DNA of 64,000 nucleotides, taken from the NCBI RefSeq assembly GCF_001695835.1, contig NZ_MBSO01000009.1, forward strand, positions 1-64,000, given 5' to 3'. Position numbers and translations under genes: made by a program. Source of the stretch: Ensifer sp. LC11. Its GTDB lineage: Bacteria > Pseudomonadota > Alphaproteobacteria > Rhizobiales > Rhizobiaceae. Of this stretch, positions 42,182 through 46,656 are shown in pieces. A model generated the notes under the pieces. It had not been told where the DNA came from and made no database searches. It saw only the letters and a list, made by a program, of their open reading frames with translations. Numbering within the stretch: the stretch's first letter is position 1; each line of letters starts with the position of its first letter.

Positions 42182-42829
42182 TTGAGCGGTCAATCGCGTG
42201 CAGTCCTCGACCCCATCGATCGCCTGTCGGAGATCATCTTCGGCCTGCTGATGGCGTTGTCCTTCACCGGAACGATGAGCACGGTCACGGGTGGCGAAGG
42301 TGGGGTCAATGCGGTGCTTGCCGCCGCCTTCGGCTGCAACATCGCCTGGGGCATCGTCGACGGCGTCATGTATATGCTGACGACCGTGGTCGAGCGGACG
42401 CGCCGCCGTGGCTTCATCGATGCGCTCAGGCGCGAGCCGCTTGAGCGCGCGCGAGAGATGTTTCTGGAAAACCTGCCGGATGACGTGCGCCGTGTTTCCT
42501 CGCCCAAGGAGACCGAGGCCTTGCTTTTGCGGGTGAGGGCGCTTGGCTCCGATCCCCGGCACAGGGCTATCACCGGCCGCGATTTCAAGGCGGCGTTCGC
42601 CATCTTCCTGCTGGTCGTCACCTCGACCTTGCCGCCCAGCATCCCGTTTCTTCTGACCGATGATGTTGCCCTGGCGATGCGCGCTTCAAACGGCATCGCG
42701 CTCGTCATGCTCTTCGTCATCGGCGCACGGCTCGGCCGCTACATGGGCCGCAGCCCCTGGCCGATGGCTTTCGCCATGGCAGCGATCGGCGCCGTTCTGG
42801 TAGCCGTCACGATCGCGCTCGGCGGATAA
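42182..42829 (+). CDS. VIT1/CCC1-family membrane transporter
   Basis: 215 residues, TTG start with AAGGAG six bases upstream. VIT features: DRLSEIIFGLLMALSFTGTM at the N-terminus, AAFGCNIAWGIVDGVMYML, then a soluble linker and three C-terminal helices ending VAVTIALGG. VIT proteins move Fe2+/Mn2+ out of the cytosol; bacterial short forms are poorly characterised. A decayed second copy of its 3' end occurs at 43432-43487. Confidence 0.85.
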   Translation: MSGQSRAVLDPIDRLSEIIFGLLMALSFTGTMSTVTGGEGGVNAVLAAAFGCNIAWGIVDGVMYMLTTVVERTRRRGFIDALRREPLERAREMFLENLPDDVRRVSSPKETEALLLRVRALGSDPRHRAITGRDFKAAFAIFLLVVTSTLPPSIPFLLTDDVALAMRASNGIALVMLFVIGARLGRYMGRSPWPMAFAMAAIGAVLVAVTIALGG

Positions 42830-42942
42830 GATTGAGAGACTGGAACGACCCGCAGGTTAGGCCACAAGACCCCTGTCGGAGCACAGCAGACTCTCTTGTT
42901 TTCTATCAATCTATAGGGTTGCCTTCTCACCAGGACAGCCAC

Positions 42943-43155
42943 ATGAAGCTTGCTCACATAGCCCGCGACGCCGAAGCGCTCGCCGCGTTTTGCGTGAACG
43001 TCTTGAAATACGAGCACTCGTTCCTGGTCTGCTTCTGGTGCCGCATTTTCGAAAGCGGACGCGATGCTCCAATCCATCGTCACCCATTGACGTCGGCATT
43101 TTTCTTCACAATAGGGTCAAGCCGACGAATGTGGCGAGCGCCAGCCACGCAATAA
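42943..43155 (+). pseudogene. Possible truncated VOC/glyoxalase gene remnant
   Basis: The reading frame starts MKLAHIARDAEALAAFCVNV, which looks like the first beta-alpha unit of a VOC protein. It then loses family resemblance and stops after 70 codons. It lies in the 339-bp stretch between the VIT gene and the 77-residue ORF, which holds nothing else I can support. Confidence 0.35.
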
Positions 43156-43168
43156 CAGGAGTGTAGTC

Positions 43169-43402
43169 GTGAGCGAACCGACCGTAGCAGATGCAACAAA
43201 CCGCATTTATGAATCGCTTCAGGCGGACAATGCCGACATTGACGTGCATATTGCGACCCTCAAGGCAGCGTTGACGCGGGCGGGTTTGAAAGAAGCCGTA
43301 TTCGACCCGGCTAGGCTCGTGCAGAACAACCGTTCTGGCAGGAAGCTCATGCAGGCATACTTTCGGCAACGCGGCGTGACGGTGAAATTCGCGGCTGAGT
43401 GA
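43169..43402 (+). CDS. Small hypothetical protein
   Basis: 77 residues, GTG start with AACAGGAG upstream. Mostly helical, with a basic C-terminus (NNRSGRKLMQAYFRQRGVTV). No domain recognised. It lies between the VIT gene and the decayed copy of its 3' end, so it is probably part of an inserted segment. Confidence 0.6.
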   Translation: MSEPTVADATNRIYESLQADNADIDVHIATLKAALTRAGLKEAVFDPARLVQNNRSGRKLMQAYFRQRGVTVKFAAE

Positions 43403-43431
43403 AGCCTTCGCATGACGTCAAACGGGCCGCA

Positions 43432-43487
43432 GCATGGCGCCGATCGGCGCCGTGCTGGTGGAGGTGACGATCCTGTTTGGTGGCTAG
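43432..43487 (+). pseudogene. Decayed second copy of the VIT gene 3' end
   Basis: The last 56 bases of the VIT gene (42774-42829) reappear with about 15 differences and encode MAPIGAVLVEVTILFGG plus stop, versus MAAIGAVLVAVTIALGG. The short GGGCCGCAG upstream and an AGATTGAG(A/G)G(A/G)CTGGA block downstream (42829 on; 43549 on) are shared as well. The similarity is therefore not limited to coding sequence. Confidence 0.75.
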
Positions 43488-43605
43488 CTTCCGCGTTGGG
43501 CGCTTCGCCCGGCTAATCAATTTATCCTCTTCGCCCGTCCATGAAGGCAGATTGAGGGGCTGGAGCTACCTTGCAAAGTGGTGCGTCCAAGGACCCCAGC
43601 CGGTT

Positions 43606-45462
43606 CTACGACGACTTCTCCTCCGCAGACGGTCTATGCGCCACACTGAACCGCAGCACCTCTTCGAAGACCAGATTTCGCGCCTTTGCGTCGGCAATCA
43701 ACGATGAGGCGGGCATAACATACAGATGAAGCGGAATACTGTCCGATGATCCGATAACGAAATCATCATAGACAACTCGCTCGCTCAATGAGAACACGTC
43801 TTTAAAGCCAGTTCTCTTCATGTCCTTGTAAAATTCGTCGTCAATCTCAACAATAGAGAATGCAAAGACTTCCCGTACAGTGTCGATCCGGTCAACGAGT
43901 TCAGACGCATACAAGCGGCATTGAAGGAGCGCCTTATTGTTCTCAAATATATCTGCTCCGGGCTTCTTGAATTCGATGATGACCAGCTTATTGGGATGGC
44001 CTTCACTGTTCTTAGAAAAAAACGCCGCAACGTCAGGCTTGCGCTGCTGTTTAGATTCTGTCTCCGCGCCAACTTCACGGACGATCTTCGCCAAGGTCTC
44101 ATCACTGTAAATGCTACTGTACGACAGGAATTTATCGTCCACGATCCAAACGTTATTCTCGCGGATATCGCTTCCGTCGCTGTTCTTGCGCAGGATGGCA
44201 TTATGGAGGACGTCTTCTGCCGATTCACGGGGCATTTTGGAAAGTGAATCGATCAGCAACGCGCGATGAATGATGAAGCGCGCCAAGTCGTCACTGGCGA
44301 GGTGGGAGATATCATCGAAATTGACTTTTCGGCCTTCTTCCATCGCCTCGACGAGTTGGTCTTCGCGTCTCGCTTGCTGCGCTCTGTAGGTCTTTACGAT
44401 CTCGTCCGCGTCCAGCATGGCGGCGTTCCCGTTCGTTGCGTCAATCGTGATGAACGGGTAGTATTTCTTCAGCTTGTTAATGTTGGCGAGTTTGAACGCG
44501 CCTATATCACCTTCCGCCGCCTCGTTGATCATGGCCAGGCATTCGTCGTGGATCCGCGGGATGAGTTTTTCGCGGCTAAGTGGCGATACTAGATCGGTAT
44601 CTGCATCAGTCTTAGGTAACTCCAGCTTCTGGCGTTCGATATTGGAGCTTCGATTCAGATAAGTCGAAGTTATAGAAATCAGATAGCGGCAGACGTCGAA
44701 CCGCTTGCTAATCTGGTATTCCTCTACGCAAAGTTCGTCGGCGCACAGCATTGCGATGATGCCTTTTCGAGGTGCATCTTCCCGAAAAAGATAACAATCG
44801 AAAATCTCACCGTTGACCTCGAAGGTTTTCGTCCTCAATGCCTCGATTTGCTCGCCTGAAAATACGAAATCCTCGGCGAACGGCTGCTTGGAGTTGTGGG
44901 TGAACTTGATCGATATGATCTGGCCGGCCTGTTTCTTCACGAACAGCAGGAGCCGCAAGTCGTCGCACATCGAGTTGACGAGCTTAGCGACCTGCGTGTT
45001 AATCTTCTCCTTCAGATCGGAGATGGTGATCGTCGTTTCCTGAGACCCCGATGTGGTTGTTCGCTTGACGTCTTCCAGTGTGAAGTCAGGTGTGTAACGA
45101 AATTCGACTAAATGTGTCGAAAGCTGGCTTCGGATGTCGACCCGATTGGCATACTTGAGAAACGCAAGGCGACCAACACCCTTACCGCCGATATCGTCTT
45201 TGTGGCCGGTGCAAATCTCGTCAAAGTAGTTGAGATTGTCCTGCGTGAAACCTTCTCCGTCGTCGGAGATAGTAATCTTGTCGAGGACTTTACGCTCTTC
45301 GTCGCCGAACAGTCCGGATTGCTTCTCAAACCAGAGATCAACTGAAATGGACTTTGCGCCGGCGTGGATAGAATTTGTTACACCTTCGCGGATGACGTCC
45401 CGCGCAGTGACGCCACCCTTGTAATGTTCAGCGATAAACTTCTTGAGATTGATCCGTGCCAT
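43606..45462 (-). CDS. GHKL (HSP90-like) ATPase with nuclease-like C-terminus; candidate defence protein
   Basis: 618 residues. The N-terminal GHKL ATPase has an N-box (EGVTNSIHAGA, E26/N30), a G1 box (ISDDGEGF, D67) and a G2 box (GGKGVGRLAFL, 92-97). The middle is long and helical. In the C-terminal 150 residues, KPDVAAFF (about 475) and LVIIEFKKPG (about 497) give the D...ExK pattern of PD-(D/E)xK nucleases. It is not MutL, HSP90 or gyrase-like in length. Base composition is visibly more AT-rich than the neighbours, suggesting acquisition. Stand-alone; the fold resembles GHKL-nuclease phage-defence proteins (inference). Confidence 0.8.
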   Translation of the reverse strand: MARINLKKFIAEHYKGGVTARDVIREGVTNSIHAGAKSISVDLWFEKQSGLFGDEERKVLDKITISDDGEGFTQDNLNYFDEICTGHKDDIGGKGVGRLAFLKYANRVDIRSQLSTHLVEFRYTPDFTLEDVKRTTTSGSQETTITISDLKEKINTQVAKLVNSMCDDLRLLLFVKKQAGQIISIKFTHNSKQPFAEDFVFSGEQIEALRTKTFEVNGEIFDCYLFREDAPRKGIIAMLCADELCVEEYQISKRFDVCRYLISITSTYLNRSSNIERQKLELPKTDADTDLVSPLSREKLIPRIHDECLAMINEAAEGDIGAFKLANINKLKKYYPFITIDATNGNAAMLDADEIVKTYRAQQARREDQLVEAMEEGRKVNFDDISHLASDDLARFIIHRALLIDSLSKMPRESAEDVLHNAILRKNSDGSDIRENNVWIVDDKFLSYSSIYSDETLAKIVREVGAETESKQQRKPDVAAFFSKNSEGHPNKLVIIEFKKPGADIFENNKALLQCRLYASELVDRIDTVREVFAFSIVEIDDEFYKDMKRTGFKDVFSLSERVVYDDFVIGSSDSIPLHLYVMPASSLIADAKARNLVFEEVLRFSVAHRPSAEEKSS

Positions 45463-45698
45463 AGAGACTGTCTAGTGAAACGAGGAAAGGCAAACAAGCG
45501 CGCTGCCAATGCTGCAAGATAAAATTATTAAGTTTCAGAGGTATGTGATCATGCCAAGAGCGCACGAACCTTGGCGGGAAGTCAAGACCCGCGCCGACTG
45601 CCGATAGGGGTGACACCTTCACCTGGCCGGCGCAATATTGCCATTCGTGGGATGGCGAAGAGATTGCCTGACAGGCGAAGCGCCGAAAGGCCAGAGTT

Positions 45699-46343
45699 TC
45701 ACGCCCTGATCGGCGCCTGGCGGATATGGATTTCGATCAGGCGCTTCAGCTCGGCCAGGTCCCTGGCTTCCAGCGCATCGACCATCAGGTGATGCTCGCG
45801 GGCCGATTGTTCGATGCGGGCGCGCGTGCGCCATTGCGAGACCGGGGCCGAGGCTGTCCGCTGGCGGATTTCGGCGATGATGTTCACGAGTTCGGTGTTG
45901 CCCGCCAGCATGAGCAGGGCGCGGTGGAAGGCGAGGTTCGCGTCGTAGTGCTCCATGATCGAGCCGCGAAACGACATCTCGTCGAAGGCCCTGGCGAGGT
46001 CCCGCAACGCCCTGACGGATTCCGGCGTCACGTTCGCCACAATCCGGTCGGCGATGCCGGTCTCGAGGATCACGCGGATGTCGCTGATTTCCTGCGTGCG
46101 CTGGTCGTCGAGCTCGTAGACCTGGTAGCCGCGGTTGGGATTGTGCTGCACCAGGCGCTTTTGCGACAGGCGATCGAGTGCGCGTCGAACCTCGGGCCGG
46201 GTGCAATCATAGCGGCGTTCCAGGTCGATCTGCTTGAGCCAGGTGCCGGCGGGAAGGGTTCCGGTCAGGATGTCGTGCAGCAAAAGCTCGGTCACGTCCT
46301 TCTTGTCCGTGGACGCTTCCGTTTCCATCAGATCGTCGCTCAT
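45699..46343 (-). CDS. GntR-family regulator, FCD type
   Basis: 214 residues. Winged HTH (ELLLHDILTGTLPAGTWLKQ, TRPEVRRALDRLSQKRLVQ) and an FCD domain with ISDIRVILETGIADRIVA, NLAFHRALLMLAGN and REHHLMVDALEARD. The His residues of the FCD domain suggest a metal-assisted carboxylate effector. The ATG at 46341-46343 (MSDDL) follows AGGA; an upstream start would add 19 residues. It is divergent from the M20 peptidase/ABC operon, which it probably controls. Confidence 0.9.
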   Translation of the reverse strand: MSDDLMETEASTDKKDVTELLLHDILTGTLPAGTWLKQIDLERRYDCTRPEVRRALDRLSQKRLVQHNPNRGYQVYELDDQRTQEISDIRVILETGIADRIVANVTPESVRALRDLARAFDEMSFRGSIMEHYDANLAFHRALLMLAGNTELVNIIAEIRQRTASAPVSQWRTRARIEQSAREHHLMVDALEARDLAELKRLIEIHIRQAPIRA

Positions 46344-46656
46344 CGCCGGTCCTGTTTTTCTCGTGTCCACTGTCCGATCCCTTCCAGGAATTGGTTCCAT
46401 TTTTGGAGAAACTATGATGACGCCCGCGACAATTCAATGCGGGCGGGGGGATTTTCTCGGCCAGTTTCAACGCCTTGGGGCCGAGACCGCGTCACCGTGA
46501 CGGCCGGCTCAAAGCCGCCGCCGATTGCCGTGATCGACCGCTGAGGCGCTCTCCACGCCAACCGAAATAATTCATCGCGCCTCTCTTGTGTATCCAAAAA
46601 TGATTCCGTAAATTGGCGCCAATAATGGATACTATTATTGGGGGCGCCGGTAAACC
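46344..46656. other. 313-bp divergent intergenic region
   Basis: Contains the promoters of the GntR gene and the M20/ABC operon and the inverted repeats described at 46590-46641. No gene supported. Confidence 0.5.
46590..46641. promoter_or_regulatory. Candidate GntR operator region
   Basis: Within the divergent GntR/M20 gap, GTATCCA (46590-46596) and TGGATAC (46626-46632) form an inverted pair. Overlapping it, CCAATAAT (46619-46626) and ATTATTGG (46634-46641) form a perfect inverted repeat around GGATACT. It ends 15 bp before the M20 start, a position suited to repression. Confidence 0.5.

Follow-up and report, generated by a model that had tools for sequence, protein, structure and literature searches.

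Results

The window analyzed here is a stretch of 64,000 nucleotides from Ensifer sp. LC11 (contig NZ_MBSO01000009.1, positions 1 to 64,000), and our subject is a gene on its minus strand (43606..45462) that starts with ATG and encodes a protein of 618 aa. This single gene combines a GHKL ATPase, a transducer, a helical middle segment, and a PD-(D/E)xK-type nuclease in the manner of the paraMORC3 type. The GHKL ATPase and S5-like transducer module takes up residues 1–317 (44512..45462, minus strand) and includes E26, N30, D67, G69, G71, GGKGVG at 92–97, and R277; the helical middle segment covers residues 318–408 (44239..44511, minus strand); and the nuclease domain, with E416, H420, D477, E497, and K499, covers residues 409–608 (43639..44238, minus strand).

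Both active sites are invariant. E26, N30, D67, G69, G71, G95, G97, R277, E416, H420, D477, E497, and K499 are identical in 46 of 46 aligned rows (a 17-row and a 32-row alignment minus three duplicates, with the window protein counted in). A first-pass annotation of the window had described intact N, G1, and G2 boxes, and E26, N30, D67-G69-G71, and GGKGVG at 92–97 are all confirmed; for the C-terminus it had given an Asp near 475 and an ExK near 497, of which the ExK stands (E497-F498-K499) and the Asp moves to D477. The upstream Glu, E416, completes the E-D-ExK set (E416-D477-E497xK499). An architecture in which one gene joins a GHKL ATPase to a predicted PD-(D/E)xK-type nuclease is supported by motifs, conservation, and predicted folds.

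Among Pfam profiles, HATPase_c_3 passes its cut-off on residues 22–120 (E = 6.1e-9), and HSDR_N falls under its cut-off on the C-terminus (E = 0.003). NCBIfam returned weak matches to the N-terminal part only, namely restrict_BbrUII (NF050001: E = 0.0038, 15.8 bits vs. a cut-off of 550, residues 23–134) and TIGR00585 mutl (16.4 bits vs. a cut-off of 180, residues 22–78). A phmmer search of PDB with the window protein gave no match, and two profile searches of PDB gave three weak GHKL matches (E = 0.038–0.28) and none, respectively. The C-terminus was predicted and searched separately because the fold search with the full-length model was filled by matches of the GHKL half. The four best VIA matches of this predicted C-terminal model are Shedu (SduA) nucleases; the model thus appears to have an SduA-type PD-(D/E)xK nuclease fold, in line with the nuclease-like C-terminus first suggested and not with an unrelated fold. 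In the N-terminal model, residues 1–321 align to MORC3, and similar ranges align to the ATPase-transducer modules of Hsp90, GyrB, and MutL. Against a viral structure library, the named matches among those listed for the full model were mostly Hsp90-, topoisomerase-, and RIIA-like proteins.

The gene was acquired as a single gene. It is the only gene in an inserted piece (43495..45665) that has no blastn match (E ≤ 1e-3) in eight sister loci. Both flanks were matched in 16 of 16 genus genomes; eight of the 15 sisters keep them together and only these eight loci were compared, the other seven being uninformative on the insertion spot because their best flank matches lie on different contigs. In G825, G922, and G925, window positions 42814–42829 are joined to 45699 within 25–39 bases, and other sister loci hold different open reading frames (ORFs) at the spot. 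DNA similarity to nine full-length homologues starts no more than 14 bases ahead of the gene and stops 35–43 bases short of its end. A close protein match within the genus was found only in the window's own genome, as its one match there, and in none of the 15 others, G926 having a distant one. The G+C content of the gene is 0.504 vs. 0.625 for the whole stretch, and its G+C at third codon positions is 0.628 vs. 0.816–0.840 in six neighboring genes, which bears out the lower G+C noted at first reading.

The duplicated and decayed flank described in the first-pass annotation was also recovered. Positions 42866..43425 align to sister-genome DNA that holds longer ORFs, which we take to be glyoxalase-like, and 43433..43494 (plus strand) duplicates the 3′ end of the gene at 42182–42829 (43433–43486 being a 76% copy of 42775–42828). 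The second copy matches sister copies at 80.7–89.7% in seven of the eight sister loci, G916 being without such a match. The spot from 42829 to 45699, between the genes at 42182–42829 and 45699–46400, is variable across the genus; G919, for example, has a 796-aa ORF there, presumably sulfatase-like.

The window gene is under purifying selection. Two of eight comparisons with it were unsaturated, with nonsynonymous divergence (dN) of 0.095 and 0.096, synonymous divergence (dS) of 2.36 and 2.30, and dN/dS of 0.040 and 0.042, respectively.

A scan of genome contigs with two close sequences as query, which reaches close relatives only, gave 12 loci in several orders with 67–89% identity across the matched part: three in Sphingomonas, one each in Komagataeibacter, a Caulobacterales metagenome-assembled genome (MAG), a MAG labeled Mesoflavibacter (a label that is probably doubtful), Xanthobacter, Paraburkholderia, and Rhizobium ecuadorense, and three fragments. 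The window protein is closer to its Sphingomonas homologues (84–85% identity) than to that of Rhizobium (67%), which indicates lateral transfer. Distribution is sporadic, as in paraMORC3: matches occurred in 17 of 297 order genomes and were close in two (the window's own and G023, at 68% identity); in the family sample they occurred in 13 of 247 genomes and in the phylum sample, at E ≤ 1e-20, in 11 of 398. The profile matched 79 of 385 genomes in the class sample, mostly by its N-terminal part only; eight of the 79 have matches that resemble the family, and the others listed match that part alone. Thirteen plasmid records had a match, one limited to the C-terminal part. Viral contigs scanned with the window protein alone gave no match, and four viral-contig scans gave 28 locus rows (1, 14, 4, and 9) on 27 contigs, since two rows (L158 and L165) are the same place of one contig.

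The window clade is compact. The spacing from E26 to K499 is 473–475 in 10 clade rows vs. 501–577 in the 36 other rows, and the shortening falls in two parts, between G97 and R277 (180 vs. 193–231) and between R277 and E416 (139 vs. 152–182), the latter including the middle segment. In the tree of the 46 rows a branch supported at 100/100 separates the clade from all other rows, and the clade's stem is 4.12 changes per column long. The tree carries a long-branch warning; two sequences (L033 and L038) join the window clade as long branches meeting, and this join is not relied on.

Several relatives are of separate interest. A decayed clade member in Mesorhizobium silamurunense (L081:9591-10034), lying inside a contig, retains only its C-terminal 130 or so residues. 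A standalone protein on plasmid pBSY19_1 of Bosea sp. RAC05 (L023:8010-8687) matches the nuclease part only, at 39% identity, and is without the active-site Asp and Lys (positions of D477 and K499); it is possibly a dead nuclease relative. On one viral contig a 2295-aa ORF (L152:38-6925) lies upstream of a family member. The catalytic residues of this member fall at 27 and 557, as in VcSduA, the Vibrio cholerae protein discussed below, but that it is VcSduA itself is not suggested by its two upstream ORFs, judged by eye.

The clade loci have no common neighbor gene apart from two Sphingomonas loci (L071 and L073) and a duplicate record (L027/L079); a partial neighbor match between L071 and L072 overlaps the gene start. 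With the insert holding only this gene and the clade loci having no conserved partner, the gene stands alone, as first described. Nor did homologues fall consistently in housekeeping surroundings, their context being inconsistent, housekeeping or other. PADLOC found nothing in 10 large clade neighbors. A HEPN/Toprim-N gene and a dual-OB gene lie near the clade member at L072, another member (L074) adjoins a plasmid replication initiator, and the pooled clade neighbors include integrase, ParA-like, and transposase families.

In the wider family, 107 of 143 listed neighbor proteins were scanned and gave 352 PADLOC families. Because the models are redundant, one protein matching 13, and there is no per-protein tally, only the named systems at three loci are used. 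One member lies beside CBASS-type genes and overlaps a DUF3800 gene (L024), and another lies beside a type I restriction-modification system (L026). At the third locus (L033:4425-9459) the family member follows, with a 4-base overlap, genes for a DNA methylase and for a ResIII-type helicase that has an endonuclease domain, apparently a type III restriction-modification operon with a GHKL-nuclease. Phage vB_RanS_PJN03 has a member near an integrase (L025:2485-4509); it is annotated as an N-acetylmuramoyl-L-alanine amidase and looks misannotated. Two further proteins overlap the start of a family member by 4 bases and are possible partners: a T5orf172/MUG113 protein (L031:7684-9048) and a 236-aa protein without a Pfam match (L039:7999-8709).

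Discussion

The product of the gene is probably a DNA nuclease of the paraMORC3 kind (GHKL plus Shedu-like nuclease) that is gated by ATP, works on its own, and acts in the restriction of phage or of other DNA entering the cell. We infer dimerization, ATPase and nuclease activity, a sensed feature, a choice between self and non-self, and a role in defense for the window protein. ATP binding would let two subunits dimerize via the GHKL module, so that a MORC/MutL-like clamp closes on DNA; clamp and middle segment may then recognize a feature of the incoming DNA, perhaps free ends, as in Escherichia coli SduA; and ATP hydrolysis and the transducer (R277) would permit cleavage by the paired nuclease domains of the C-terminus through E416, D477, E497, and K499. 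Since the gene moves without a methyltransferase or any other partner, the choice between self and non-self should reside in the protein. The first-pass annotation had proposed a candidate single-gene defense system, and this gains support by analogy from VcSduA, a protein of the same plan that is experimentally anti-phage; the gene is, however, less novel than was implied, because its kind is already known.

Several observations weigh against this reading. Pfam SduA_C reaches E = 0.094 on the C-terminus of the window protein (13.3 bits vs. a cut-off of 27) and, at E ≤ 0.01, matches one of 32 aligned rows, HSDR_N matching 10 of them. No PADLOC family matched the window protein, and on the 32 rows the PADLOC models SduA and TmtA touched two (best E = 0.026) and six (best E = 0.00075), respectively. 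Foldseek with the C-terminus found no PDB match below E = 0.001, the likeness to VcSduA is drawn from its published description, and the long stem of the clade means that function may have drifted. Moreover, the enrichment of defense genes that a neighborhood survey was to reveal is absent for the clade: 28 PADLOC families were found at E ≤ 1e-8 for 121 neighbor proteins at 12 loci (138 listed, a few ORFs exchanged for alternatives, the window's own neighbors outside the count) vs. 97 for 107 control proteins (of 124, the last control loci missing) from stretches of wider-family genomes at least about 25 kb from the family gene. Because the clade has fewer than the control, a defense-island context is not claimed. 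Control matches were led by mad2/mad3/mad8, GajB-like, and methyltransferase models, which are probably two-component, UvrD-like, and orphan-methylase look-alikes, and labels of mad, BrxH-like, and DpdJ near the clade were accordingly dropped.

Other explanations differ in what the nuclease would serve. A repair or mismatch-type factor, whose single chain would pair a MutL-like ATPase with a nuclease for the benefit of the host chromosome, has some appeal, since the GHKL half looks like that of MutL and MORC and since pairs of a GHKL ATPase and a nuclease function in mismatch repair (discussed in PMC2292703). Conservation would be expected of a housekeeping repair gene, however, and close copies occur in none of the 15 other genus genomes and two of the 297 order genomes, which, with the mutl score far under its cut-off, makes this unlikely. 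A restriction enzyme like BbrUII and HgiDII (type II, ATP-dependent) that relies on an unlinked or lost methyltransferase would fit the weak restrict_BbrUII match on the GHKL part and the apparent methylase and helicase-endonuclease operon at L033. That match is, however, a small fraction of the cut-off and N-terminal only, and the clade loci, bar the two Sphingomonas loci and the duplicate record, share no neighbor and hence no traveling methyltransferase, so we hold such an enzyme to be improbable.

A mobile-element gene whose main targets are rival plasmids or mobile elements, and not phages, is equally improbable: the plasmid replication initiator beside one member, the integrase, ParA-like, and transposase families among clade neighbors, and the 13 plasmid records speak for it, but VcSduA acts on phages, and plasmid and phage exclusion are mutually compatible. 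That the gene is degenerating and without function in this genome is hardly credible in spite of its decayed flanks and the remnant in Mesorhizobium, given a full open frame, intact catalytic residues, and the low dN/dS in both measurable comparisons.

Restriction of invading DNA by a self-contained nuclease thus remains our preferred reading, and a bolder form of it is conceivable, if doubtful: the clade may form a compact class of its own among single-gene, ATP-gated restriction nucleases, in which the sensor housed in the shortened transducer and middle segment differs from that of VcSduA and reads another feature of foreign DNA, sparing self without a modification enzyme, and whose bare gene spreads across alpha- and betaproteobacterial orders. 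No publication on the compact clade was recognized among titles and abstract beginnings, most subscription papers being outside reach. In the literature surveyed, VcSduA is the sole tested example of single-gene GHKL-nuclease defense. A compact natural version in which the catalytic residues are all present would be of use in working out how small an ATPase-nuclease machine can be and which part of it reads the DNA, since target range can be compared between clades with different transducers and middle segments. The defense catalogues PADLOC 2023 and Pfam SduA_C overlook this branch.

Among known systems, BbrUII/HgiDII and MutL fit poorly, as neither NF050001 nor TIGR00585 extends across the protein. 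Eukaryotic MORC2/3/4 have 9–12% identity to the window model in the MORC rows and, to our knowledge, have no nuclease domain. The window protein gave no profile match at curated cut-offs to the Shedu SduA proteins of Bacillus cereus and E. coli (8ti8, 8ti9, 8ps4, and 8ps5). The E. coli protein, according to a review (PMC12904381), binds to the ends of DNA and introduces nicks close to them. We do not file the window protein as Shedu because its DUF4263/SduA_C signature scores below the cut-offs; kinship with Shedu is supported by the predicted fold. The paraMORC3 family, as described by Iyer, Abhiman, and Aravind (2008, PMC2292703), has an N-terminal GHKL and S5, a C-terminal restriction-endonuclease-fold domain with E-D-ExK, and a subset of standalone genes without conserved neighbors. 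The window protein has every one of the paraMORC3 features tested, with its ATP-binding GHKL motifs, an S5-type transducer with conserved R277 in the predicted model, and an invariant E-D-ExK in a C-terminal domain whose model has nuclease matches; the window clade is more compact and long-branched, the 2008 family being known here by its published description. VcSduA is a type I-D Shedu protein of V. cholerae with a GHKL N-terminus that restricts phages, and restriction is abolished by E27A and by K557A, so that both active sites are required (2025, PMC12137116). Like the window protein it is a single gene with a GHKL N-terminus (E27 there, E26 here) and a PD-(D/E)xK C-terminus (K557 there, K499 here), the window protein being 57 residues shorter between these two positions. 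By this analogy, the window protein most likely works like the GHKL-type Shedu VcSduA.
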